From Litorimonas taeanensis (GTDB lineage: Bacteria > Pseudomonadota > Alphaproteobacteria > Caulobacterales > Maricaulaceae): 64,000 nt of DNA. Below are positions 41,827-60,597 of the stretch, piece after piece. Location: assembly GCF_003634015.1 (NCBI RefSeq), contig NZ_RBII01000001.1, positions 310,001 to 374,000 of the forward strand. The letters run 5' to 3'. Positions within the stretch are counted from its first letter, which is position 1. Every line of letters starts with the position of its first letter. The translations under genes and the position numbers were made by a program. Under the pieces are notes generated by a model. It was given only the letters and a program-made list of their open reading frames with translations, ran no database searches and was not told the DNA's origin.

Positions 41827-41863
41827 AAAAAGAAAGCCCCGCAAGGTTAACATCTTGCGGGGC
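41827..41863 (-). terminator. Intrinsic terminator of the giant repeat-protein gene
   Basis: GCCCCGCAAG (41836-41845) pairs perfectly with CTTGCGGGGC (41854-41863) around an eight-base loop. On the minus strand it runs into TTTCTTTTTT. It lies 38 bases past the stop of the giant gene. Confidence 0.92.
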
Positions 41864-41900
41864 CTCTTATTCAGTCCGGGCTTTCGCCCGGAAACTTATC

Positions 41901-44900
41901 TTAGTTTACGCGGCCGATGATTGTACCCGCAGCATTGATAACATTACCGTTTGCATCAACACGGCCAATAACTGTGCCTGTTGAACGGTTGATTACCATA
42001 CCATCTGCACGGACTTGGAAGTCACCCGCTGACAGACCTCCTGTAGTCGTCGTCGTTGTCGTGCTGCCGATTGTGCCGGCGGCACCTGATGTTGCAGATA
42101 ATCCGCGAAGAACAACTGTTCCTGCTGAGTTCACTACATCACCTGCGGCATTCATTCTTCCGATGACGCGACCAGAACTGTCTGTGACAGTACCGTTTGC
42201 ACCGATAGAGTATCCGCTCAATGACCCGCCTGTGACGAGACCAGAACCACCACCCACTGAGGATGAGAAGCCGCTGATAACGACAGTACCGGCAGAGTTA
42301 ACAACATCACCTGCGCCATTTAAGCGGCCGATAACCACACCAGAGGCATTACGGACTGTGCCATCGGCACCGACTGTATAACCAGATGTAGTCGTTGTGG
42401 TGACAGTTGAACCTGTCGTGAAGCCTGTTGAGCTACCTGAGACTGTAGAGCCAGTTGTGAAACCGCCCGTTGTCACACCAGATGTTCCGCTAATCATTGA
42501 GCGCCAGTTCACACCCAAGGCGTCAACTGTTGTCAATGTTAGGCCACCTGTTGATAGACCACGTGCTGTTTGGAAACGCTCGACAGCGGCGTAAGTCATA
42601 CGACCCAATGTACCGTCAATTGCACCTTGATAGTAGCCTTGTGCGGTTAGTGCACGTTGGATGGCAGAGATAACTTCGCGGCTAGCATTCGCTTCGCAAA
42701 GGATCTGACGCCATTCGGCTTTCTCACCCGTAATCTGTGTACGACGCTCGATTGTGCCGTATTCAGCTGGGATAGCAATTGTTTCAGTACGTGGAGCTTC
42801 AACCATACGCTGAACTGTCACTGTGTCGTAACGCGCTGGGATAACCCGACGTTCGATACGTGGCGCACCCACAGGGACGCGGCGAGTGACTTGCTTTGTC
42901 ACAGCAGGGATAACCCGCTCTTGCGTTGTCGCTGGTGTTCTAACGACGCGGCGAGTGACTTGCTTCGTAACAGCCGGGATAACGCGCTCTTGCGTTGTCG
43001 CTGGTGTTTTGATGCGACGACGTGTTTCAGTCTTAGTCACAGCAGGGATGACCCGTTCTTGCGTTTGAGCTTCAGTCCGCATGACACGGCGCTGTACTGT
43101 TTTTGTGACAGCCGGAATGACACGCTCTTGTGTCGAAGCTGGTGTCTTAACAACACGGCGTTGAACCGTTTTCGTCACAGCAGGAACAGTGCGCTCAATC
43201 GTACGTGCTGGTGTCTTAACAACACGACGCTCAACGACATTGCTTACGGCTGGGATCACACGTTCACGTGTAGAGGCCGGTGTTTTGACCACTTGGCGTG
43301 AAACCTGTTTCGTTACCGCAGGAATGACGCGCTCTTGCGTTGATGCAGGTGTCCGCATGACACGGCGTTGAACCTGCTTTGACACAGCCGGGATAACCCG
43401 TTCTTGGGTCGCAGCCGGTGTTTTCACAACACGGCGAGTGACTTGCTTTGTGACCGCTGGAACTGTGCGCTCGACAGTCTGTGCCGGTGTCTTAACGACG
43501 CGGCGTGTTTCTGCCTTAGTCACAGCCGGAATAACACGTTCTTGAACCTGAGCCGGTGTCTTAACGACGCGGCGAGTTTCAGTCTTTGTTACAGCCGGGA
43601 TAGCACGCTCAACTGTACGCGCTGGTGTCTTAACAACACGGCGCTCAACAGTTTTAGTCACAGCTGGGATAACCCGCTCTTGCGTCGCAGCTGGTGTCTT
43701 AACAACGCGGCGAGCCACTTGCTTCGTGACAGCTGGTACAGCCCGTTCAACTGTGCGGGCCGGCGTAGCGATACGGCGGCGCGTTTCAGTTTTCGTGACC
43801 GCAGGAACAACACGTTCCTGAACCTGAGCCGGTGTTTCAACCACACGGCGGGTGACTTGTTTTGTCACAGCCGGGATTGCCCGTTCGACAGTCTGCGCAG
43901 GTGTCTTAACAACACGGCGTGTTTCCATCTTAGTCACTGCAGGGATAACGCGTTCTTGTGTCGCTGCTGGTGTTTTAACAACACGACGTGAAATCTGAGC
44001 CGTTACAGCTGGAATAACACGTTCAACAGTTGACGCTGGCGTTTTCACGACGCGGCGTGTTTCCGCTTTAGTCACAGCTGGGATGACACGCTCTTGAACA
44101 GAAGCAGGTGTCTTCACAACGCGGCGAGAAACAGTTTTCGTAACAGCAGGCGTTGCACGCTCAACTGTACGGGCCGGTGTTTTCACAACGCGGCGTGTTT
44201 CTGCTTTTGTGACGGCTGGAATAACACGTTCCTGTACCTGAGCCGGTGTCTTAACAACACGGCGAGAGACAGTTTTTGTAACCGCTGGTGTCGCGCGCTC
44301 AACCGTAGAGGCTGGCGTTTTCACGACGCGGCGTGTTTCCATTTTAGTCACAGCTGGGATGACACGCTCTTGAACAGAAGCAGGTGTCTTCACAACGCGG
44401 CGAGAAACCTGTTTCGTAACAGCAGGCACTTGACGCTCAACTGTACGGGCAGGTGTTTTCACGACGCGGCGTGTTTCCATCTTCGTTACCGCTGGAATGA
44501 CGCGCTCTGTCGTCGCTGCAGGCGTTTTCACGACGCGGCGAGAGACAGCTTTCGTTACAGCCGGGATAACACGTTCGACAGTTTGCGATGGTGTCTTGAT
44601 AACACGACGCGTTTCCATCTTTGTGACCGCTGGAATGACACGCTCTTGGGTCGCAGCTGGCGTCTTAACAACGCGGCGTGTGACCTGTTTCGTGACAGCC
44701 GGTACAGTGCGTTCAACAGTACGTGCTGGCGTCGCGATACGGCGACGTGTTTCCGTCTTCGTGATCGCTGGAATGACGCGCTCTTGTGTCGCCGCTGGTG
44801 TCTTAACAACACGACGTGTGACTTGTTTCGTCACAGCAGGGATGACCCGCTCAACAGTAGAGGCTGGTGTTTTCACGACGCGGCGTGTTTCCACTTTTGT

Positions 44901-47900
44901 GACCGCTGGAATGACACGTTCTTGTGTCGCCGCTGGTGTCTTAACAACACGACGAGACACTTGTTTCGTGACAGCCGGAACGACACGCTCGACAGTAGAC
45001 GCTGGTGTTTTCACAACACGGCGTGTTTCCATCTTCGTCACTGCAGGAATAACGCGCTCAGTCGTAGACGCTGGTGTTTTCACAACACGGCGAGTGACTT
45101 GCTTTGTTACGGCAGGTGTCGCGCGCTCAACCGTAGAGGCTGGCGTTTTCACAACGCGGCGAGTTTGCGCCTTAGTGACAGCTGGGATGACACGCTCTTG
45201 AACAGAAGCAGGTGTCTTCACAACGCGGCGAGAAACCTGTTTCGTAACAGCAGGCACTTGGCGCTCAACTGTACGGGCAGGTGTCTTAACAACGCGGCGT
45301 GTTTCCATCTTCGTCACAGCAGGGATGACACGTTCTTGTGTCGCCGCTGGTGTCTTAACAACACGGCGCTGAACTGTTTTCGTAACGGCTGGTACCGTAC
45401 GTTCTACAGTTCTTGCTGGTGTCTTAACAACACGGCGTGTTTCCATCTTTGTGACAGCTGGAATGACACGTTCTTGCGTCGAAGCCGGACGATCAACAAC
45501 ACGGCGTGTAACCGTCTGTGTAACCGCTGGAATGACGCGTTCTTGTGTCGAAGCCGGTGTCTTAACAACACGGCGTGTACGCTGCTTTGTTACCGCAGGG
45601 ATAACACGCTCAACTGTCTGAGCCGGTGTTTTCACAACACGGCGTGACACTTGCTTCGTGACTGCAGGTACAACACGTTCAACAGTTCTCGCTGGCGTCG
45701 CGATACGGCGACGTGTCTCTGTTTTAGTGACAGCAGGGATAACACGTTCTTGTGTCGAAGCCGGAGTTTTCACAACGCGGCGAGTAACCTGTTGTGTAAC
45801 GGCTGGAATGACACGTTCTTGTGTTGCTGCTGGTGTTTTCACAACACGGCGTGTTTCTGTTTTTGTAACAGCTGGAATGACGCGCTCTTGAACAGAAGCA
45901 GGGCGGTCCACGACGCGGCGAGTGACCTGTTTCGTAACGGCAGGAACAATTTGTTCTGCTGTACGGGCAGGGGTCTTAATCCGGCGACGTGTTTCCATCT
46001 TAGTTACAGCTGGAATGACGCGTTCTTGCGTAGATGCAGGACGGTCAACAACACGGCGTGTCACTGTTTGAGTAACTGCAGGGATAACACGTTGCTGTGT
46101 TGACGCTGGAGTTTTCACAACACGGCGTTGAACTGTCTTCGTAACCGCAGGGATACGACGTTCAGCAACACGAGCTTCCTCGTCAATGACGCGTTTGGAA
46201 ATTGTACCCAATTGCTGTCCGTAACGTGTTGACCCTGTAATTCCGCGGCGTCCACCACCAGCACGGTCTGCATTAGCAGCCGCTGTGCGGGATAGTCCGT
46301 CACGGTCATCACTTCCGTCATTGTTTGTATCAACAAAGCCAGAGTAACCGCCAAATGCCTGACCTTTAAGGCCTGCACGTTCAGCTTCGCTACGTGTCAT
46401 TACACGTGCGGCTGATTTAACAACGCGGCGTGTAATTGTGTCAGTAACCGCAGGGATTACAGTTTCACGTGTTGTGGCTTCTGTATCGACGACACGTTTC
46501 GTGATTTGCTTTGTGACAGCAGGGATAGTGCGTTCCACTGTGCGCGCTGGCGTGACGATAACTTGCTTAGTGATCGTTTTGTAGCGTGCAGGGATAAGAA
46601 CACGACAGAGGATTTCACCTGTTTGGTTCACGATAGTTTGTGTTGATTCAACCACTTGCTCAGACACACCGTTAAAGACAGTGAACTGTCCACGTGTGTT
46701 TGTATTGATTGTACCAGATCCACCGAGCTGTGTTGCATTGATAGCTTGGCTACCAGGCTTCCACTCTTCACGTGCAGGTTCGATCAAAACGCGCTCAGAG
46801 CGTGTTTCGTAAACAGCAGGAATGACTTCAATGTCGACGCGAGAAGGCTGAACGACGATTGTTTCTTGTACTGTTTTGTATGTTGCAGGAACAACATCAA
46901 CCCGTGTGCTTGCTTCTTGAACAACGATTGTTTCAGTGACGTTTTCATAAACCGCCGGGATAACAACCAATTCGTCAGCTGCGTCTTGTTGGATGTATGT
47001 TTCTTGTTCTGTGCGGTATGTTGCGGGAACAGAGACATATTCAACCGTTTCTGGCTGAACAACAATAGTTTCAGTGACAGTTTCATATGTCGCTGGGATT
47101 GAAACAAGCTCTGTAGAGGCTTCTTGAACCACAACAGTCTCAGTCACATTTTTATATGTTGCTGGAACGACAACAAGCTCAGTTGACGCTTCTTGGACAA
47201 CAACGGCTTCTTGATATGTTTCATATTCCGCAGGGACAGTCACATAGTTTACAGTTTGCGGCGTAACGACAACTGTATCTGTTACGTTTTTGAACGTTGC
47301 AGGAATTGTAACAAGCTCTGTTGTTGCTTCTTTAACAACAACTGTCTCAGAGACAGTTTCATATGTTGCTGGGATTGAAACAAGCTCTGTAGAGGCTTCT
47401 TGAACCACAACTGTTTCAGTCACAGTTTCAAATGTCGCTGGAATAGTGACAAGCTCAGTAGAGGCTTCCTGAACAACAACTGTGTCTTGGTAAGTTTCGT
47501 ACTCAGCTGGCACAACAACGTAATCAACAGATTGAGGCTGTACTACGACTGTTTCAGTCACTGTCTCAAAGACAGGTGGAACTGTCACAAGCTCAGTAGA
47601 CGCTTCTTGAACAACATAAGTTTCAGTCACGTTTTCATAAACAGCTGGGATAGTGACCAATTCTGTCGTTGCGTCTTGAACGACAACAGTTTCAGACACT
47701 GTTTTGAATGTCGCAGGAACTGTTACAAGCTCAGTCGAGGCTTCTTGAACCACAACAGCTTCTTGAACTGTTTCATACACAGCAGGCACTGTTTCATAAG
47801 TAACAGAGGCTGGTGTGACGACGAGTGTTTCGGAAACAGTCTCGAATGTCGCTGGAATAGTGACGAGCTCTGTTGAGGCTTCCTGAACAACAACCGCTTC

Positions 47901-50900
47901 TTGAACGGTTTCGTAAACAGCAGGCACAGATTCATAAGTTGTCGTTGCTGGCGTAACGACAACAGTTTCTGTGACAGTTTCGAATGTGGCTGGGATAGTC
48001 ACAAGCTCTGTTGACGCTTCTTGTACGACAACATTTTCTGTGACGGTTTCATATGTCGCAGGGACTGAAACATACTCAACGCCAGCAGGCTGAACGACGA
48101 TTGTTTCAGAAACAGTTTCGAATGTTGCTGGGATCGTCACAAGCTCAGTCGAGGCTTCTTGAACAACAACAGCTTCTTGGACTGTTTCATATACAGCAGG
48201 CACAGAAACATACTCAACAGTTTGCGGCGTAACCACCACAGTGTCAGTCACTGTTTCGAAAGTTGCTGGGATAGTGACGAGCTCTGTAGACGCCTCTTGT
48301 ACAACAACAGTGTCTTGAACGGTTTCGTAAACAGCAGGAACAGAAACATATTCAACTGTTTGCGGTGTTACGACGATTGTTTCTGCAACAGTTTCATAAG
48401 TCGCAGGGATCGTGACGAGCTCTGTAGAGGCTTCCTGAACAACGATTGTTTCTTGGTAAGTCTCATACTCAGCAGGGACTGTCACATAATCAACAGTTTG
48501 TGGCTGAACAACAACTGTGTCTGTCACAGTTTCATATGTCGCTGGGATAGTCACAAGCTCTGTAGACGCTTCTTGTACGACAACAGGTTGCTGCACAGTT
48601 TCGTAAACAGCCGGAATAACTTCATAAGTTACAGTTTGCGGTGTTACGACAAGCGTTTCAGTCACTGTCTCAAAGACAGGTGGGATAGTGACAAGCTCAG
48701 TCGAGGCTTCTTGAACAACAACAGCTTCTTGAACAGTTTCAAAGACTGCTGGGATTGTTTCATATGTCACAGAAGCTGGCGTTACGACGACAGTTTCGTT
48801 CACAGTCTCAAATGTCGCTGGGATAGTGACAAGCTCTGTAGAGGCTTCTTGAACGACAACCGCTTCTTGAACGGTTTCGTAAGTCGCAGGCACAGAAACA
48901 TACTCAACGCCAGCAGGCTGAACGACAACGACGTCAGTTACAGTTTCAAATACTGGTGGGATAGTGACGAGCTCTGTAGACGCTTCTTGTACAACAACTG
49001 TTTCTTGTACGGTCTCATATTCTGCAGGCACAGAAACATACTCAACGCCAGCAGGCTGAACGACAACGACGTCAGTTACAGTTTCAAATGTTGCTGGAAT
49101 AGTGACGAGCTCTGTTGAAGCTTCTTGTACAACAACAGTGTCTTGAACGGTTTCGTAAACCGCAGGAACAGAAACATATTCAACTGTTTGCGGAGTAACC
49201 ACAACTGTTTCAGTCACAGTTTCGAATGTTGCCGGAATAGTGACAAGCTCAGTAGAGGCTTCTTGAACAACGACAGGCTCTTGAATGGTTTCAAAAACAG
49301 GCGGGATAGTCACATACTCAACGCCAGCAGGCTGAACAACGACAGTATCTGTAACTGTACGGAATTTAGCTGGGATAGTGACGAGTTCTGTAGAGGCTTC
49401 CTGAACAACAACCGTGTCAGTATATGTTTCATATTCCGCCGGTACGACGACATAATCAACACCAGCAGGCTGAACAACAACTGTGTCAGTCACAGTTTCA
49501 TAAGTCGCTGGAATAGTGACAAGCTCTGTAGAGGCTTCTTGTACGACGACAGTTTCAGCAACAACGCCAAATTCTGCAGGTACAGTAACAAGCTCTGTAG
49601 TCGCTTCTTGAACAACAACAGTTTCAGAAACTGTTTCGAATGTTGCTGGGATAGTGACAAGCTCTGTTGAGGCTTCTTGAACAACAACAGTATCCTGTAC
49701 GGTTTCATAAACCGCTGGGATTGTTTCATATGTTACTGAAGCGGGCGTGACGACGATCGTTTCCGTAACGTTTTCGAATACAGCTGGGATAGTGACGAGT
49801 TCAGTCGAGGCTTCTTGAACCACAACTGTGTCTGTGACTGTTTCAAAAACAGGCGGGATAGTGACAAGCTCTGTAGTGGCTTCTTGCACAACAACAGTGT
49901 CAGTCACAGTTTCAAATGTCGCTGGGATAGTGACGAGCTCAGTTGAAGCTTCTTGTACGATGACAGACTCAGAAACAGTTTCATATTCGGCAGGAACAGA
50001 AACATATTCAACAGTCGCAGGCTGAACGACAACAGTGTCAGTCACTGTTTCGTAAGTCGCTGGGATAGTGACGAGTTCAGTTGAGGCTTCTTGTACAACG
50101 ACAGTGTCTGCGACGGTTTCAAATACTGGAGGGATAGTCACAAGCTCAGTTGAGGCTTCTTGAACCACAACAGTGTCTGTATAAGTTTCGTAAACAGCAG
50201 GGACTGTTGTGTATTCAACAGATTGTGGCTGAACAACAACTGTCTCTGTTACAGTTTCGTAGACTGGGGGAATGACTACGAGTTCAGTTGAAGCTTCTTG
50301 AACGACAACAGTTTGTGTTTCTGTCCGGAAAGCAGATTGACCACCAGTTGAAGCCGCGCCGCTGTAAGAATTTACAATGTTACGTGTGATAAGGTTACCG
50401 TTTGTACCCACCAAGCCGCCATTGCGGTCGATTTGGCCGATGCGTGAACCAGAAGCATTGCGAACGCTCATATCCGAAGCGACGCTATAACGAGTGTTAC
50501 CATATGAGAGTGTAGTCGTTGCAGAACCGCGACCAATGAGAGTCAGTGGGTCGACGGCGTCGCGTACGATGACACGGCCATTTGAGCCAACAATATTGCC
50601 TTCACTATCAACCGATCCAATAACGGCGCCATTGGAGCCAGTTACTGTACGGGCAGAGTCAATGTTGTAAGCTGTGCCATTGATTGTAACAACGATTGTG
50701 CCACGTCCAGGGACGATAGTGCCACCGTTGCCGACAACAACAAGCTCATAGCTTTCTTCTTGAACGAGCACGCGTTCAGTGACGGTTTCGAAACGACCCG
50801 GAATTTTTCTGATTTCCTCACCCGCTTGACGCAGAACAATCTGCTCAGTCGAAGTTTGGTATGTTGCCGGCACGATTACCCGGGCAAAACATTCACCAGG

Positions 50901-50987
50901 CAATGGATTACCGGGTGGTAATTCCTGTGCGATGGTTGGTGCAGCAAGCACCGCGGCCGATGCGGCCAATAATAGAGTACGTTTCAT
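41901..50987 (-). CDS. Giant secreted repeat protein with acidic and basic 23-residue arrays and a peptidoglycan-binding domain
   Basis: 3,028 residues from ATG 50987 (MKRTLLLAASAAVLAAPTIA, signal peptide, cleavage near AQ); the frame is open 18 codons further but that would bury the signal. Order: Cys33 and two degenerate repeats (32-85); two glycine-rich modules (105-143, 165-203); acidic array of 51 units (227-1399); a linker with Cys1461, two and a half early basic units and a Ca-loop-like D1553-G1564; basic array of 48 contiguous units (1598-2701) plus degenerate ones; Cys2764 and a PG_binding_1-type domain (about 2768-2825); three more glycine-rich modules (2868-3028). Shorter proteins with such VPAxYxTVTxxV repeats, an EWREVLC-like cap and a PG-binding domain are known; this size and charge split are not familiar to me. 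It is monocistronic, with its own terminator. Role unknown; a cell-wall-attached fibre, adhesin or scaffold is likely. Confidence 0.9.
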   Translation of the reverse strand: MKRTLLLAASAAVLAAPTIAQELPPGNPLPGECFARVIVPATYQTSTEQIVLRQAGEEIRKIPGRFETVTERVLVQEESYELVVVGNGGTIVPGRGTIVVTINGTAYNIDSARTVTGSNGAVIGSVDSEGNIVGSNGRVIVRDAVDPLTLIGRGSATTTLSYGNTRYSVASDMSVRNASGSRIGQIDRNGGLVGTNGNLITRNIVNSYSGAASTGGQSAFRTETQTVVVQEASTELVVIPPVYETVTETVVVQPQSVEYTTVPAVYETYTDTVVVQEASTELVTIPPVFETVADTVVVQEASTELVTIPATYETVTDTVVVQPATVEYVSVPAEYETVSESVIVQEASTELVTIPATFETVTDTVVVQEATTELVTIPPVFETVTDTVVVQEASTELVTIPAVFENVTETIVVTPASVTYETIPAVYETVQDTVVVQEASTELVTIPATFETVSETVVVQEATTELVTVPAEFGVVAETVVVQEASTELVTIPATYETVTDTVVVQPAGVDYVVVPAEYETYTDTVVVQEASTELVTIPAKFRTVTDTVVVQPAGVEYVTIPPVFETIQEPVVVQEASTELVTIPATFETVTETVVVTPQTVEYVSVPAVYETVQDTVVVQEASTELVTIPATFETVTDVVVVQPAGVEYVSVPAEYETVQETVVVQEASTELVTIPPVFETVTDVVVVQPAGVEYVSVPATYETVQEAVVVQEASTELVTIPATFETVNETVVVTPASVTYETIPAVFETVQEAVVVQEASTELVTIPPVFETVTETLVVTPQTVTYEVIPAVYETVQQPVVVQEASTELVTIPATYETVTDTVVVQPQTVDYVTVPAEYETYQETIVVQEASTELVTIPATYETVAETIVVTPQTVEYVSVPAVYETVQDTVVVQEASTELVTIPATFETVTDTVVVTPQTVEYVSVPAVYETVQEAVVVQEASTELVTIPATFETVSETIVVQPAGVEYVSVPATYETVTENVVVQEASTELVTIPATFETVTETVVVTPATTTYESVPAVYETVQEAVVVQEASTELVTIPATFETVSETLVVTPASVTYETVPAVYETVQEAVVVQEASTELVTVPATFKTVSETVVVQDATTELVTIPAVYENVTETYVVQEASTELVTVPPVFETVTETVVVQPQSVDYVVVPAEYETYQDTVVVQEASTELVTIPATFETVTETVVVQEASTELVSIPATYETVSETVVVKEATTELVTIPATFKNVTDTVVVTPQTVNYVTVPAEYETYQEAVVVQEASTELVVVPATYKNVTETVVVQEASTELVSIPATYETVTETIVVQPETVEYVSVPATYRTEQETYIQQDAADELVVIPAVYENVTETIVVQEASTRVDVVPATYKTVQETIVVQPSRVDIEVIPAVYETRSERVLIEPAREEWKPGSQAINATQLGGSGTINTNTRGQFTVFNGVSEQVVESTQTIVNQTGEILCRVLIPARYKTITKQVIVTPARTVERTIPAVTKQITKRVVDTEATTRETVIPAVTDTITRRVVKSAARVMTRSEAERAGLKGQAFGGYSGFVDTNNDGSDDRDGLSRTAAANADRAGGGRRGITGSTRYGQQLGTISKRVIDEEARVAERRIPAVTKTVQRRVVKTPASTQQRVIPAVTQTVTRRVVDRPASTQERVIPAVTKMETRRRIKTPARTAEQIVPAVTKQVTRRVVDRPASVQERVIPAVTKTETRRVVKTPAATQERVIPAVTQQVTRRVVKTPASTQERVIPAVTKTETRRRIATPARTVERVVPAVTKQVSRRVVKTPAQTVERVIPAVTKQRTRRVVKTPASTQERVIPAVTQTVTRRVVDRPASTQERVIPAVTKMETRRVVKTPARTVERTVPAVTKTVQRRVVKTPAATQERVIPAVTKMETRRVVKTPARTVERQVPAVTKQVSRRVVKTPASVQERVIPAVTKAQTRRVVKTPASTVERATPAVTKQVTRRVVKTPASTTERVIPAVTKMETRRVVKTPASTVERVVPAVTKQVSRRVVKTPAATQERVIPAVTKVETRRVVKTPASTVERVIPAVTKQVTRRVVKTPAATQERVIPAITKTETRRRIATPARTVERTVPAVTKQVTRRVVKTPAATQERVIPAVTKMETRRVIKTPSQTVERVIPAVTKAVSRRVVKTPAATTERVIPAVTKMETRRVVKTPARTVERQVPAVTKQVSRRVVKTPASVQERVIPAVTKMETRRVVKTPASTVERATPAVTKTVSRRVVKTPAQVQERVIPAVTKAETRRVVKTPARTVERATPAVTKTVSRRVVKTPASVQERVIPAVTKAETRRVVKTPASTVERVIPAVTAQISRRVVKTPAATQERVIPAVTKMETRRVVKTPAQTVERAIPAVTKQVTRRVVETPAQVQERVVPAVTKTETRRRIATPARTVERAVPAVTKQVARRVVKTPAATQERVIPAVTKTVERRVVKTPARTVERAIPAVTKTETRRVVKTPAQVQERVIPAVTKAETRRVVKTPAQTVERTVPAVTKQVTRRVVKTPAATQERVIPAVSKQVQRRVMRTPASTQERVIPAVTKQVSRQVVKTPASTRERVIPAVSNVVERRVVKTPARTIERTVPAVTKTVQRRVVKTPASTQERVIPAVTKTVQRRVMRTEAQTQERVIPAVTKTETRRRIKTPATTQERVIPAVTKQVTRRVVRTPATTQERVIPAVTKQVTRRVPVGAPRIERRVIPARYDTVTVQRMVEAPRTETIAIPAEYGTIERRTQITGEKAEWRQILCEANASREVISAIQRALTAQGYYQGAIDGTLGRMTYAAVERFQTARGLSTGGLTLTTVDALGVNWRSMISGTSGVTTGGFTTGSTVSGSSTGFTTGSTVTTTTTSGYTVGADGTVRNASGVVIGRLNGAGDVVNSAGTVVISGFSSSVGGGSGLVTGGSLSGYSIGANGTVTDSSGRVIGRMNAAGDVVNSAGTVVLRGLSATSGAAGTIGSTTTTTTTGGLSAGDFQVRADGMVINRSTGTVIGRVDANGNVINAAGTIIGRVN
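41904..42386 (-). repeat. Three C-terminal glycine-rich modules of the giant protein
   Basis: Residues 2868-2906, 2924-2962 and 2988-3028 share YxVGADGTVRNASGxVIGR followed by xNxAGDVVNSAGTVV. They are separated by Ser/Thr/Gly linkers with Thr runs. The same module type occurs twice near the N-terminus (50373-50675). The pattern suggests short beta-hairpin or solenoid turns. Confidence 0.85.
42885..46196 (-). repeat. Basic array: 48 tandem 69-bp units (23 residues each)
   Basis: Counted by hand; the 48 x 69 = 3,312 bases fit exactly between Lys1598 and Thr2701. Typical unit: RRVVKTPAST at positions 1-10, then QERVIPAVTK at 11-20, then a variable three (MET, QVS, QVT, TET). Each unit has about five or six Lys/Arg and one or two Glu. 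Units often alternate between a 'TQER...KMET' and a 'TVER...KQVS' form, giving a 46-residue period. Two complete units and one partial unit precede the linker, and one or two degenerate units follow. There is no insertion or deletion inside the block. Confidence 0.95.
46293..46340 (-). other. Calcium-binding-like loop in the inter-array linker
   Basis: Residues 1550-1565 read GFVDTNNDGSDDRDGL. The DxNxDGxxD pattern matches the calcium loops of EF-hand, dockerin and thrombospondin type 3 repeats. It lies in a Gly/Arg-rich linker of about 55 residues that interrupts the third basic repeat. Confidence 0.6.
46791..50309 (-). repeat. Acidic array: 51 tandem 69-bp units (23 residues each)
   Basis: Counted by hand; 51 x 69 = 3,519 bases exactly span Val227 to residue 1399, with no length variation. 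Main unit form: VVVQEASTELVTIPAT at positions 1-16, then F/Y, ETV, a Thr and Asp/Glu-rich end. It usually alternates with a second form having QPAGVEY or TPQTVEY in positions 4-10, giving a 46-residue super-repeat. Typical units have three or four Asp/Glu and no Lys/Arg. Pro14 is nearly invariant. Confidence 0.95.
50373..50675 (-). repeat. Two N-terminal glycine-rich modules of the giant protein
   Basis: Residues 105-143 (YNIDSARTVTGSNGAVIGSV and following) and 165-203 (YSVASDMSVRNASGSRIGQI and following). VRNASG and the IG-x-x-(D/N)-x-x-G-x-(V/L) spacing match the three C-terminal modules. Confidence 0.8.
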
Positions 50988-51019
50988 TTCAAAAAACCCC
51001 CAACTCTCCAGTAACAAAC

Positions 51020-51036
51020 ATCTACGAAGTGTAGAT
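51020..51036 (-). other. Small stem-loop in the 5' leader of the giant gene
   Basis: ATCTAC pairs with GTAGAT around a five-base loop about 33 bases upstream of the ATG. It could affect message stability or translation; no further support. Confidence 0.4.
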
Positions 51037-51116
51037 TCCACAATAACCTAACCAAACGTAAACGCTATGGCTAGACGTTAATTTCCTATTAAAAGGAATT
51101 CTTCCAATTTCAATGC

Positions 51117-57235: not shown

Positions 57236-57639
57236 TTACACTCTCCCTCATAACTCGCGCTGACGCCTTGTCCATTAGCTGTACATTCATTGGGATAGGT
57301 TTTTCCGTTACACCCGCAAACAGGCGCGTAAATTTGAGGACAAACCTCTGGTAAAGGAGTGCATGTCCCGGGCGCGTCTGCGACTCCGCATAAATCGCCA
57401 ATGGTTCGGCGGCAGAACTGGCCCACAGGGCATTCATTACCTTGAACGCGTGCCATGCCACCGCAAAAACGAACATCAGACGGTGCTTCGCTAACGGGAA
57501 AATTAGGCGGCGGGAGGTGAGGTTGGTTCTGACCATTGTGACTAGGCGGTGGGGCGCAGCACTCTTCAGTCGGGGCCGTACATGCCGTGAGAACGCTTAA
57601 AACTATCAAACTTGCGAGCGTGTAAATTATCTTCCGCAT
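57232..57639 (-). CDS. Kazal-type protease inhibitor-like lipoprotein
   Basis: 135 residues. Lipobox SVLTAC is followed by a Pro/Asn-rich linker. A first Cys-rich segment contains FCGGMARVQGNECPVGQFC, the CGGxxG...CPxGxxC pattern often paired with Kazal domains in bacteria. The C-terminal Kazal-like domain contains APVCGCNGKTYPNECTA and ends EGEC. Kazal domains inhibit serine proteases; two S41 proteases and an M16 protease are encoded in this window, but no link is shown. The gene overlaps TerB (TAATG) and cupin (ATGA) genes. Confidence 0.85.
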   Translation of the reverse strand: MRKIIYTLASLIVLSVLTACTAPTEECCAPPPSHNGQNQPHLPPPNFPVSEAPSDVRFCGGMARVQGNECPVGQFCRRTIGDLCGVADAPGTCTPLPEVCPQIYAPVCGCNGKTYPNECTANGQGVSASYEGECK

Positions 57640-58349
57640 TATCCAGTCCTCACTTCTGTTTCGACCTGAGCAGCCATTTCTGGGTCTAGTCGCAATTCCA
57701 TTGCGAGCCGATCTAAGTAGTCCCGTTCTTTTGGGTGCAGACCATTAGCAATGCGGCAAGAGACAGCATAAATTTCATAGGCTGTTTGGTCATTTTCAGC
57801 GAGCGCAGCAATGGCTTTTGGGTCTGCATTAGCCTTTAAGGCTGATAGGAGCGTGGTTTCGCTCGCGCCTTCATGGGCTTCAATAAGCGTTTTTTCGTCA
57901 TGGCTGATTTCGCCGTCGGCTTGCGCCGCTGCGACCATGGCTTGTAGCAAGATATTGGCACGCTTTTCAGCCTTTTCACCTTTGATAAGACCGATAACGT
58001 CATCGACATTTTTAGGCATGCGGCCTGCTTGGTGAGCTTTAAACGCAATCATACCTAAGGCGCCTAACCCACCAAGAGTGGCGAGTTTTCGTCCAGACCT
58101 TGAAGAAAGGAGTAAGGCTAGACCGCCAGCCCCGGCAGCAATCTTGGCTTTATCGCGCAAATCTTTGCGGCTTTCTGCATCGTCGCCAATGCTTAATTTG
58201 TCTGCAAGGTAGTCTTCGCCTTGTTGATATAGGGCTTTGCCCTTTTGCGTTATATCTTGGCGGCCCTTGCTGTTTGGGTCCATAAGCGCTTTGCCTTCAG
58301 AGAGGAGCTGCTCCAAAAAATCCTGAATATTGGGTTTAGCTGTCGTCAT
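57639..58349 (-). CDS. DUF533/TerB-like protein
   Basis: 236 residues from ATG 58349, which has a strong AGGAGG ribosome binding site eight bases upstream; the frame is open further upstream but without this site. The C-terminal half is TerB-like: LLQAMVAAAQADGEISHDEK with the acidic metal-binding pattern, and YLDRLAMELRLDPEMAAQVE. A hydrophobic stretch (AAGAGGLALLLSS, TLGGLGALGMIAFKAHQAG) near residues 75-115 resembles the DUF533 membrane-associated region. The family links to tellurite resistance or inclusion membrane functions in annotation only. It heads the five-gene operon. Confidence 0.83.
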   Translation of the reverse strand: MTTAKPNIQDFLEQLLSEGKALMDPNSKGRQDITQKGKALYQQGEDYLADKLSIGDDAESRKDLRDKAKIAAGAGGLALLLSSRSGRKLATLGGLGALGMIAFKAHQAGRMPKNVDDVIGLIKGEKAEKRANILLQAMVAAAQADGEISHDEKTLIEAHEGASETTLLSALKANADPKAIAALAENDQTAYEIYAVSCRIANGLHPKERDYLDRLAMELRLDPEMAAQVETEVRTG

Positions 58350-58455
58350 TATGAAGTCCTCCTGAAACGGAGGATAGGGGAATTCTGGCGACTTCACAAA
58401 CGCCAAAATGTAGTTTCCGCTTTCAAAAAATGAATAGCCGTTGCACAAATACAGC
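58350..58455. promoter_or_regulatory. Divergent promoter region between TerB-like and acylase genes
   Basis: The two ATG codons face away from each other across about 106 bases. It must contain the start signals of both genes, but no clear -35/-10 pair was recognised. The Shine-Dalgarno sequence of the minus-strand gene is the only firm element. Confidence 0.4.
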
Positions 58456-60597
58456 ATGAAGAATGTTCTTAAAGTCCTCGGCTTAGTTATCTTTTTTCTT
58501 TTGGTGGTGGCCGCGCTTTATTTACGAACGCCAGCGGGGCCCAATTACAGCCAGTCAAAAATTAAAAAAACCGCCGCATCTTATGACGTTCGTATCATTC
58601 GTGACGGTTATGGCGTGCCCCATATTTTCGGACAGACAGACGCGGATGCAAGTTTTGGGTTTGGATATGCCCATGCTGAGGATGACTTTGAAACTATTCA
58701 AGATGTTATAATCGCCGCGCGCGGGATGAGCGCGCAATATAAGGGTAAATCTGCGGCGCCTCAGGATTATCTCTTTGATTTATTCAAAGTGTCCGAAACG
58801 ATAGAGCAGCGCTATCAAAGTGATGTGCGAGAGGATGTGAAAGCCATTGCCCGCGCCTATGCCGACGCAATAAATCTATATGGCGTAGAGCATCCCGAAA
58901 AAGTTTTATCGGGCGTTCTTCCTGTAACAGAGCAAGACGTTTTGGCTGGGTTTACATGGGCCACGCCGTTTTTTTATCGTTTAGACGGATATCTCGAAGA
59001 TTTATTCACAGCTGACGACAAACCCAATGTTTCGCCTTGGGCGCAAACCAGTGCACTTAATCTGGTTGATGCGGTTCGTGGCTCGAATGCCTTTGCGGTG
59101 GCACCAATCAGAAGTGAGGATGGCTTTACACGGCTTATTGTGAATTCCCATCAACCCATGACAGGGCCATATGCTTGGTATGAAGCGCATATGGTTTCAG
59201 AAGATGGGTTGAACATTGCCGGAGGTACTTTTCCGGGCGTGCCTATAATTGCCAATGGGGTAAACGAAAATTTAGGCTGGGGGCAGACCGTGAATAGACC
59301 TGATTTAGTGGATATTTACGCCCTTAAGGTTGATGATGTCGACACACCTAAACGGTATAAATTAGACGGTGAATGGCAAGACTTTGACATTACGAAGTCT
59401 ACGTTTCGAGTGAAATTATGGGGCCCATTTTCTCTCCCTATCTCACGGCCACTCTTATGGTCAAAGCACGGCCCTGTTCTCTCAACTCCAACGGGGCATT
59501 ACGCTGTTCGGTTTTCAGGATTGCAAGGTATTGGTGCATTACAGCAATGGTATGATATGGGCAAAGCTAGCACATTGGCCGAATGGCAAGCCGCCGTGGC
59601 GCAAAACCATGTGCTTTCATTTAATATGATATATGCAGACAAAGAGGGGAATATTGGCGCGGTCTATAACGCCCGTATGCCAAATCGGATAGAAGGCCCA
59701 GATTGGGAATCGGTCTTGCCGGGGGATAAGTCAGAATTGATTTGGGAAGGCTTTCGTCCGCTGAGTGATATGCCGCAAAACTGGAATCCAGAATGCGGTT
59801 GGGTGTTTTCCGCTAATGCAACGCCATTTAATATAACGGATCCATCCTGCAATCTGTCTCGGGCTGATTTCTCTGAAACTTTCGGGATAGAAAAGCGTGT
59901 GACAAACCGTTCTCGCCGCGCTCTGAAATTATTTACGGCGGATAAGGCTATCTCGAAAAATGATATTCTGAAATATCGATCCGACACGCGTTATGACCCT
60001 GAATCTAATTTGATGAAATTCGTTGTCGATCTCGTCTCTCGCTCCTACGAAGATCCGCTCTTAAATGAAGCAAAAGAGATTCTAAGGCATTGGAATGGCG
60101 ACACCTCGCAATCCTCTCGAGGGGCAGCCTTAGCCGTTATTGCGGGCACTCAGGCCTTAGGGTATGACTATACCGAGCCTGAGATGGAACCTGTGGAGGC
60201 CCTCTTATATGCGGCCACAAATTTGAAGGCTCGGTTTGGACGGCTTGACCCCGAATGGGGCGAGGTGAATCGGCTGCAACGCGGCGATGTTGATTTACCT
60301 TTGGAGGGTGGCCCCGATGTATTGCGGGCCATTTATTCAGATCGAGAGGGTGTCGAAAAAACAGGTGCGATGAATGCGTTCGCAGGGGATACGCATATTA
60401 TGATGGCCGAATGGAATAAGGCAGGTGAATTGGATCTTATCTCTATTCACCAATATGGCGCGGCCACTTTGGATGAAACATCGCCGCATTATGATGACCA
60501 AGCCCCGCTTTTCGCGAGGGGAGACTATAAAGCGATGCCAATGCGTTTGGAGGCCGTATTAGAGACGGCCACGCGAGATTATAGACCGGGGAAATAG
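58456..60597 (+). CDS. Penicillin acylase-family Ntn hydrolase
   Basis: 713 residues. The N-terminal hydrophobic segment VLGLVIFFLLVVAALYL targets it to the periplasm. The alpha-chain signature IRDGYGVPHIFGQTDADASF is present. The autocatalytic cleavage site and nucleophile Ser lie in VRGSNAFAVAPIRSEDG, and the beta chain includes VNENLGWGQTVNRPDLVD and LSFNMIYADKEGNIGAVYNA. Family members hydrolyse amides of acyl side chains (penicillin G, acyl-homoserine lactones, aculeacin). Active site residues cannot separate these by eye. ATG 58456 is chosen over TTG 58441. It ends 19 bases before the retropepsin gene. Confidence 0.9.
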   Translation: MKNVLKVLGLVIFFLLVVAALYLRTPAGPNYSQSKIKKTAASYDVRIIRDGYGVPHIFGQTDADASFGFGYAHAEDDFETIQDVIIAARGMSAQYKGKSAAPQDYLFDLFKVSETIEQRYQSDVREDVKAIARAYADAINLYGVEHPEKVLSGVLPVTEQDVLAGFTWATPFFYRLDGYLEDLFTADDKPNVSPWAQTSALNLVDAVRGSNAFAVAPIRSEDGFTRLIVNSHQPMTGPYAWYEAHMVSEDGLNIAGGTFPGVPIIANGVNENLGWGQTVNRPDLVDIYALKVDDVDTPKRYKLDGEWQDFDITKSTFRVKLWGPFSLPISRPLLWSKHGPVLSTPTGHYAVRFSGLQGIGALQQWYDMGKASTLAEWQAAVAQNHVLSFNMIYADKEGNIGAVYNARMPNRIEGPDWESVLPGDKSELIWEGFRPLSDMPQNWNPECGWVFSANATPFNITDPSCNLSRADFSETFGIEKRVTNRSRRALKLFTADKAISKNDILKYRSDTRYDPESNLMKFVVDLVSRSYEDPLLNEAKEILRHWNGDTSQSSRGAALAVIAGTQALGYDYTEPEMEPVEALLYAATNLKARFGRLDPEWGEVNRLQRGDVDLPLEGGPDVLRAIYSDREGVEKTGAMNAFAGDTHIMMAEWNKAGELDLISIHQYGAATLDETSPHYDDQAPLFARGDYKAMPMRLEAVLETATRDYRPGK

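Follow-up and report, generated by a model that had tools for sequence, protein, structure and literature searches.

Pal, OmpA and Lpp tether the outer membrane to peptidoglycan. Known tandem-repeat proteins form coiled coils, solenoids or strings of domains that each fold by themselves. Very large exported proteins have also been described. In MpAFP of Marinomonas primoryensis, according to the accessible part of its description, an Ig-like repeat of 104 residues that depends on Ca2+ occurs about 120 times, and Giant1 to Giant5 of Apilactobacillus kunkeei are, in the available passages of PMC12863079, surface or envelope proteins of 3,000-8,000 residues from a small genome. Here we describe a gene in a 64,000-nucleotide stretch of Litorimonas taeanensis DNA (contig NZ_RBII01000001.1, positions 310,001 to 374,000; this whole stretch is called the window, and coordinates refer to it), a marine bacterium of a genus classed by NCBI in the Robiginitomaculaceae. 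The gene encodes an exported protein of 3028 residues, the giant, which consists mostly of an acidic and a basic arm. The arms are arrays of homologous 23-residue units, they are equal in unit number, and they covary in antiparallel register over their whole length. We propose, with a probability of about 0.7, that the giant is a single two-stranded beta hairpin whose strands carry opposite charges and whose open end binds peptidoglycan.

The likeness to Pal, OmpA and Lpp lies in export or lipid anchoring combined with peptidoglycan binding. No OmpA-type C-terminal domain was found among the Pfam matches of the giant or of 28 short relatives, and the giant would bind through PG_binding_1, an anchor domain that is itself ordinary. 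We know of no tether of the giant's length or hairpin design. With MpAFP, as far as its accessible description goes, the giant shares export, size and a make-up of mostly tandem repeats that set the reach, but the MpAFP repeats fold singly, whereas here each repeat would be half of a pair with its partner in the other arm, so that the unit numbers must match. RTX or Ig-like adhesin features were not among the Pfam matches of the giant, the secretion signal being checked through Pfam only. Giant1 to Giant4 are elongated with an N-terminal beta-solenoid domain, and the available passages of PMC12863079 describe no acidic-basic pairing. Solved long beta hairpins resemble the proposed structure in their extended two-stranded geometry alone, with no homology or shared function. 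Short PG_binding_1 proteins share with the giant the order of parts, the 23-residue unit, the three cysteines, the Trp at the end of each arm and the antiparallel covariation; they differ from it in having about 4 + 4 rather than 54 + 54 units, a weaker charge split and, in about half of them, a lipoprotein signal. In the open-licence PMC literature, with subscription papers mostly outside its scope, we found no paper on the giant, its repeat or a giant hairpin.

Parts of the giant protein

The open reading frame at 41901-51041(-) opens with GTG; the ATG at 50987 is the likely start, giving a gene at 41901-50987(-) in a source genome of 2.78 Mb (3 contigs). The protein contains only three cysteines, at residues 33, 1461 and 2764, which are exactly those called C1, C2 and C3 below. 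Its parts are as follows.

50928..50987, minus strand: Sec signal peptide MKRTLLLAASAAVLAAPTIA, residues about 1-20 of 3028 (cleavage site placed by eye, from the sequence)
50889..50891, minus strand: cysteine C1 (residue 33), within PGECFARV, directly before unit A1
50736..50873, minus strand: units A1-A2 of the acidic arm, residues 39-84
50343..50735, minus strand: A insert, 131 residues between A2 and A3, Gly-rich, with motifs resembling those of the C-terminal tail
46755..50342, minus strand: units A3-A54 of the acidic arm, residues 216-1411, last letters EEWKP
46608..46754, minus strand: inter-arm linker, 49 residues, predicted tip loop
46605..46607, minus strand: cysteine C2 (residue 1461), TGEILCRVLIPA, where the basic arm begins
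46389..46595, minus strand: units B1-B3 of the basic arm, residues 1465-1533
46224..46388, minus strand: B insert, 55 residues between B3 and B4
42705..46223, minus strand: units B4-B54 of the basic arm, residues 1589-2761, last letters AEWRQ
42696..42698, minus strand: cysteine C3 (residue 2764), in EWRQILC
42516..42677, minus strand: PG_binding_1 domain (PF01471, 39.4 bits against a cut-off of 23), residues 2771-2824, predicted open end of the hairpin
41904..42515, minus strand: C-terminal tail, Gly/Ser/Thr-rich, with three 'VGADGTVRNASGVVIGR' motifs

The signal peptide has no lipobox, the mark of an outer-membrane lipoprotein. Both inserts vary between giants: the A insert is missing or reduced to 3 residues in five of them (L068, L071, L073, L075 and L086), and the B insert measures 5-61 residues in the other giants, with the divergent unit B4 counted apart. 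Full-length matches to the linker in giants of the family share 71-88% identity. Matches of the C-terminal tail to DUF3659 and Bflower_2 were both under their cut-offs. The idea that two A-insert motifs and three tail motifs form a five-fold flower at the base was rejected, motif totals ranging from 0 to 6 across 24 giants when counted by motif pattern.

Two oppositely charged arms of one repeat

At lags of 23, 46, 69 and 92 residues, self-identity was 0.55, 0.72, 0.57 and 0.73 in the acidic array and 0.64, 0.71, 0.61 and 0.72 in the basic one (lags 5-119), and at the listed lags other than multiples of 23 it did not exceed 0.21 in either. The mean net charge per unit was -3.44 for 50 acidic units and +3.62 for 47 basic units. 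The acidic array contains 10 Lys/Arg in 1150 residues and the basic array 71 Asp/Glu in 1081; over all units, the arms carry -178 and +185. Aligned as profiles, the two arrays matched best in register 0 with a score of 15.7, which was reached by 1 of 20,000 permutations of the columns (mean -2.1, SD 3.1). With hhalign, the E values were 7e-5, 1.9e-6 and 6.6e-9 (probabilities 63, 90 and 96%) for one-, two- and four-unit profiles. The register-0 match and these E values point to a single repeat family rather than chance.

An earlier note on this DNA had predicted a secreted protein with a peptidoglycan-binding domain and acidic and basic arrays of one 23-residue repeat. Periodicity, charge and hhalign confirm the arrays; the signal peptide read in the sequence bears out secretion, and PG_binding_1 is present with an E value of 6.7e-10. 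The architecture given there was right as to two arrays and missed the inserts after A2 and B3 and the super-period described next; its 99 units become 54 + 54 = 108 once the divergent end units are counted. It overlooked the equal unit number of the arms, which is the most telling feature, and missed that the arms are partners covarying antiparallel, residue by residue.

The arrays show a super-period of two and four units (46 and 92 residues, i.e., 138 and 276 bp; window 42876-46128 and 47056-50312), and the repeats seem to be homogenised in blocks of that size. The arrays gave no Pfam or NCBIfam match at E <= 1, and in PDB the acidic array had a single weak match, to 4u06 (LIC10831, E 0.01).

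Equal unit numbers in the giants

A search specific for the linker (E <= 4.6e-26 within a frame of at least 1,641 residues, vWF_A frames excluded, counted by hand) found the giant in 25 of 108 genomes of the family. The count is a minimum, as only the C-terminal part is present in broken assemblies, for example G001 and G003. In a 60-genome sample, no listed frame above 390 residues occurred in genomes outside the family. Giants were found, for example, in Litorimonas cladophorae (L059) and an Algimonas sp. (L073). We dropped L076 and L085 (no C3 found), L067 and L081 (frame running off the end of the stretch) and other truncated giants. The giant of Algimonas arctica (L085, G005:C4) is split into frames of 1913 and 755 residues and represents either a broken gene or an assembly error.

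All 24 complete giants have an acidic first arm (units-only charge -199 to -120) and a basic second arm (+95 to +216), so that the uniqueness of the size and charge split, suggested in the earlier note, is not supported. A lipobox-like motif was present in 1 of the 24 giants of the named set. Scoring by dynamic programming alone gave equal unit numbers in 13 of the 24 (54/54 in 12, 46/46 in 1); with divergent units set by hand from gap lengths, this rose to 21 (54/54 in 18, 46/46 in 3). The units also hold their index across species. When 11 giants were compared with that of the window, same-index identity (0.67-0.81) beat every tested shift (0.58-0.73) in 22 of 22 comparisons, covering both arms. 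The inner units that diverge most from the consensus, A51 and B4, are predicted partners (51 + 4 = 55), and the likeness of A_n to the consensus tracks that of B_(55-n) (rho 0.54, p 3e-5) vs a rho of 0.19 for B_n.

A widespread family of short two-armed proteins

A scan of a genome collection gave 96 relatives, of which 80 were kept. Apart from the giants, they are short proteins whose stop-to-stop frames mostly span 277-506 codons; they come from Woeseiaceae, Kangiella, Campylobacterales, Hirschia, Henriciella, Gemmatimonadetes, Myxococcota and others. Their common plan is C1, mostly four units, Trp, linker, C2, mostly four units, Trp, C3 and PG_binding_1, and the giant of the window follows the same plan of C1-arm-W-linker-C2-arm-W-C3-PG_binding_1. 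Short arms range from 3 to 7 units (e.g., Hirschia maritima L132, Kangiella L101-L104 and Henriciella L117). The spacing between C2 and C3 equals 6 + 23n residues in 108 of 113 short proteins, and is 98 residues (four units) in 99 of them. The lengths of the two arms correlate in short proteins (r 0.94, n 40) and in giants (r 0.74, n 22), without correction for kinship. Both C1 and C3 were kept in all 92 four-plus-four arms having C1, while C2 was missing from its place in 5 of these. There were 11 more lattice matches without C1 at its place; among these, L289 and L290 aside, several are proteins of other unit number.

PG_binding_1 was found at E <= 0.001 in 26 of 28 short relatives; a Pfam scan of these 28 gave PG_binding families only, with no model over the repeat. 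C1 follows a lipobox-like motif in 58 of 111 short relatives, so that about half appear to be lipoproteins, with an N-terminal stretch resembling a coiled coil (judged by eye). As to charge, counted without L110, the first arm was net negative in 26 of 40 short proteins and the second net positive in 33; the second was more positive than the first in 39 of 40, and Campylobacterales members have two positive arms. The two-arm plan and the charge bias thus predate the giant, in which the split was inherited and sharpened, and the earlier idea of one ancestral repeat split within the giant finds no support. The giant is the short plan in which the two arms have grown together to 54 + 54 units. 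An origin in place from a short gene was considered and rejected: none of 46 loci (L087-L132) had the window's HAD or rplU neighbour, and two showed weak M16 matches.

Further relatives were found in 13 of 398 genomes of the phylum at E <= 1e-20 and, at 1e-40, in 110 of 348 of the order, 46 of 369 of the class of G335 and 1 of 78 of the class of G326; the sequences used are part of the matches from these wider order, class and phylum searches. The family occurs in many Gram-negative bacteria and has so far been unannotated. Many genomes have a second, short paralogue beside the giant (L226, L228-L230, L232, L235, L236, L239 and others; frame of about 380-470 residues), whose match to the short-family model covers about positions 2-226 of 287 and ends before the PG_binding domain. 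For the window's own genome, both of the matches listed lie within the giant. One relative, L129, from a deltaproteobacterial metagenome-assembled genome, has the order C1-arm-Cys-arm-Cys-arm-Cys-arm-C3 and may contain two hairpins in its one chain, nested or in series.

Antiparallel covariation between the arms

We determined the residue-by-residue covariation of the acidic and basic arms (ANTIPARALLEL) in short proteins and in giants. For the short proteins, we used mean-field direct coupling analysis with average product correction on 144 distinct four-plus-four sequences (effective number 93), with arms aligned gap-free. A single inter-arm line was found at i+j = 92-99, counted from C1 and C2, the sums 95, 96 and 97 scoring 7.8, 7.0 and 7.6. 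By comparison, 150 antidiagonals more than 8 away scored at most 2.26, parallel diagonals 2.50 and intra-arm lines 2.7. Within 3 of the line were 12 of the top 20 inter-arm pairs (1.4 expected) and 36 of the top 99 (6.8 expected), and the peak stayed at 95-96 when only the middle units were used. Such a line is the signature of an antiparallel strand pair, and would place C1 beside C3 and C2 opposite the final Trp of the first arm. In 0-based unit positions, the register is p+q = 17 +/- 1, which for 54 + 54 units predicts that A_n lies opposite B_(55-n) with p+q near 16-18.

The giants provided a separate test, with sequences distinct from the short ones: 18 giants of 54/54 units (2 x 1,242 columns, 56-92% identity) were compared through vectors of pairwise differences, from which overall distance was regressed out. 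The five-line band at n+m = 55 and p+q = 15-19 scored 11.75, while 409 other bands had a mean of -0.09, an SD of 1.17 and a maximum of 3.29. Bands one unit off scored 0.22 and -0.69, and two units off 2.84 and 2.26. At the exact register, six nine-unit segments scored 7.8, 2.9, 4.1, 5.0, 4.4 and 4.6, with controls at 2.2 or below. The signal persisted among 12 giants under 80% identity (10.12, null maximum 3.71) and in random 12-giant subsets (6.8-12.1), and 300 permutations shuffling species between the arms reached at most 3.63. The top four of 1,884 antidiagonals (p+q = 19, 16, 18 and 15) all fell exactly at n+m = 55. Leading pairs (1-based) were A8-B12, A11-B7, A17-B23, A11-B5, A1-B20 and A6-B14, and A20-B22 scored too; in the window consensus, A6-B14 is Glu-Lys and A20-B22 Glu-Arg. 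Taken together, the computations strongly support that the two arms are complementary and pair antiparallel, all along their length and in their unit numbers. Parallel pairing, intra-arm pairing and independent solenoids are disfavoured by the covariation in both groups.

Further evidence for the register came from mini-hairpins in proteins with a vWF_A domain (PF12450), which in some genomes carry one or two short copies of the hairpin, made of the giant's types of acidic and basic unit, mostly with the basic strand first and a [DN]G turn (L298 in G002, L299 in G016, L302 in G071 and L035 in G012; these proteins have a putative membrane segment). If p+q = 17 is correct, the centre of symmetry of a mini-hairpin must lie in its turn. 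This was found in 5 of 5 distinct mini-hairpins past the score cut-off, from four genomes, at 0, 0.5, 0.5, 0.5 and 1.0 residues from the Asp/Asn; the search included turn residues, not unit positions. The lone acid-first mini-hairpin is weaker evidence, the nearest of several centres being allowed. The basic-first mini-hairpins resemble the tip or base of the giant in circularly permuted form, and three of the four vWF_A proteins contain the giant's linker sequence. These vWF_A proteins are candidate partners or regulators of the giant.

A proposed hairpin and its possible function

We propose that the acidic and the basic arm, each of 54 units and 1,242 residues, form a two-stranded antiparallel ribbon, A_n lying opposite B_(55-n), and that each unit forms a 12-residue and a 7-residue strand with two-residue Pro/Ala breaks between them. 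A single chain would fold back on itself, beginning near the linker and C2, and the opposite charges would help the arms to meet in register. The 49-residue linker with C2 would be the tip. At the open end, C1 would adjoin C3, probably in a disulfide locking the base, together with PG_binding_1 and the Gly-rich tail; since PG_binding_1 sits at the base, the open end would anchor the ribbon to the wall. With about 0.33 nm per residue, the ribbon would extend over nearly 0.4 µm, and the short relatives over about 30 nm.

The chain would thus contain two complementary arrays that close like a zipper and hold register over more than 1,200 residues, under a pairing rule, A_n with B_(N+1-n), that is readable in the sequence alone. 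Cross-arm pairing would explain the frozen repeat number. To our knowledge, such a paired-array ribbon is a new kind of repeat protein, of a shape known nowhere else, and the hairpin of the giant is perhaps the longest beta hairpin known. It would provide a simple rule for designing very long protein ribbons. It also makes an unannotated family testable as peptidoglycan-bound, extended ribbons whose length can be counted, with about 30 nm for the common form and about 0.4 µm for the giant's family.

Most likely, the giant serves in the cell envelope as a stiff tether, as a spacer or as part of a lattice, its reach set by the number of paired units; use as an envelope tether or spacer is a tentative assignment, to which we give somewhat less than even odds. 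We consider it doubtful that the giant acts as a molecular ruler, whose 54 unit pairs and length of about 0.4 µm, locked over several genera, set the dimension of an envelope structure such as the prostheca found on bacteria of the giant's family. The occurrence of 54/54 units in 18 of 24 giants is suggestive of a ruler-like fixed length. We know of no cell structure whose size follows the giant's repeat number. The available passages of PMC12700997, with regard to prosthecae, mention neither the family nor Hellea or Litorimonas.

An unlikely alternative is that the giant passes through the outer membrane as a surface fibre or adhesin of bacteria living on algae, rather than serving as a periplasmic tether. 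The periplasm is some tens of nm wide, and a reach of about 0.4 µm lies far beyond it. Bacteria of the giant's family have been isolated from algae, according to the accessible part of PMC11556061, which would also suit a fibre. However, no autotransporter, type 1 secretion or sortase-type feature was among the Pfam matches, and PG_binding_1 together with the lipobox-like motif in 58 of 111 short relatives points to the periplasm.

Alternative folds and points of weakness

Rather improbable, but equally expected to produce arm-arm covariation, is a domain-swapped ribbon of two chains in head-to-tail arrangement, with the A arm of one paired to the B arm of its partner, which could reach double the length with anchors at both ends, or form a polymer. 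A linker of 49 residues does not force a tight turn, and C2 at the tip would be free to bridge two chains. Nevertheless, the mini-hairpins of the vWF_A proteins, closed by a turn, are intramolecular by their sequence, and C1 and C3 are kept together in the 92 four-plus-four arms with C1, as would be expected of a clamp within one chain.

We regard it as very improbable that the arms fold apart as solenoid-like rods whose opposite charges bind other molecules or other copies. Each arm is indeed a regular array with strong intra-arm periodicity, and in the giants intra-arm column covariation was strong at offsets of 46 and 92 residues (8.6-18.0). Yet these offsets join the same position of different units, which is the pattern expected when repeats evolve in concert. 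In the short family, intra-arm lines did not exceed 2.7, against 7.8 between the arms, and separate rods leave the equal unit numbers without explanation. Least credible of all is a disordered polyampholyte whose arms attract each other loosely, without register, in a coacervate, gel or slime: its Thr/Val/Pro/charged-rich composition and simple repeats would fit, but not the residue-level register along the whole length, the unit identity frozen by index or the regular strands predicted.

AlphaFold2 predicted strands of about 12 and about 7 residues per unit in both arms, in the Hirschia short protein (28 sequences; pLDDT 69.5, pTM 0.48, PG-binding part near 90) and in the window fragment 45879-47306, which covers A47-B8 (19 sequences; pLDDT 70.0, pTM 0.21). 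In the fragment, confidence dipped at A51, the linker and the B insert. For the short model, the best of Foldseek's non-significant matches were long-hairpin proteins (E >= 8.6e-3, TM about 0.06) and, at a probability of 0.99-1.0, PG-binding domains.

Several observations weigh against the hairpin. The confidence of AlphaFold2 was modest, falling below 50 for the short model's middle units, and the models were read for strand pattern, not strand partners; in Foldseek searches against PDB, neither the short model nor the A47-B8 fragment had a match at E <= 0.001. The covariation fits antiparallel pairing within one chain and between two chains alike. In the giants, the fifth and sixth of the 1,884 antidiagonals lie far off the band (4.24 and 4.0), its weakest line, p+q = 17, is eighth with 3.17, and the finest peak is at 19 (then 16 and 18), compared with 16-18 in the short proteins. 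Counts of opposite charges did not pick out the register, being highest at p+q = 14 and next at 18, with like charges at 16. A phase test of unit types did not separate antiparallel from parallel pairing: it ranked the exact antiparallel offset first, alone or tied, in 5 of 6 giants, with the parallel offset 0 almost equal. As to unit numbers, 8 of the 21 equal counts depend on divergent units added by hand from gap lengths, and the arms are unequal in 3 of the 24 giants (54/50, 52/48 and 42/41 in L054, L062 and L072), metagenome assemblies in which the repeats may have collapsed. When four terminal units per end were left out, the rank correlation between A_n and B_(55-n) fell to a rho of 0.28 (p 0.06), and the units lost from the A and B arms of shorter giants lie at only roughly opposite positions, their placement being uncertain.

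Gene neighbourhood and other features of the window

The neighbourhood of the giant gene is old: rplU lies 3' of it in 13 of 14 regions, with M16 nearby in 12 and HAD in 10, and L044 has none of the three. Directly 3' of the gene in the window is the following feature.

41833..41866, minus strand: terminator-like hairpin with a T-run

Over the whole window, the terminator scan was at chance level (14 found, 12.8 expected). Elsewhere in the window (57639-60597), a DUF533/TerB-like gene on the minus strand and a penicillin-amidase gene on the plus strand overlap by a few bases at the start of the latter.

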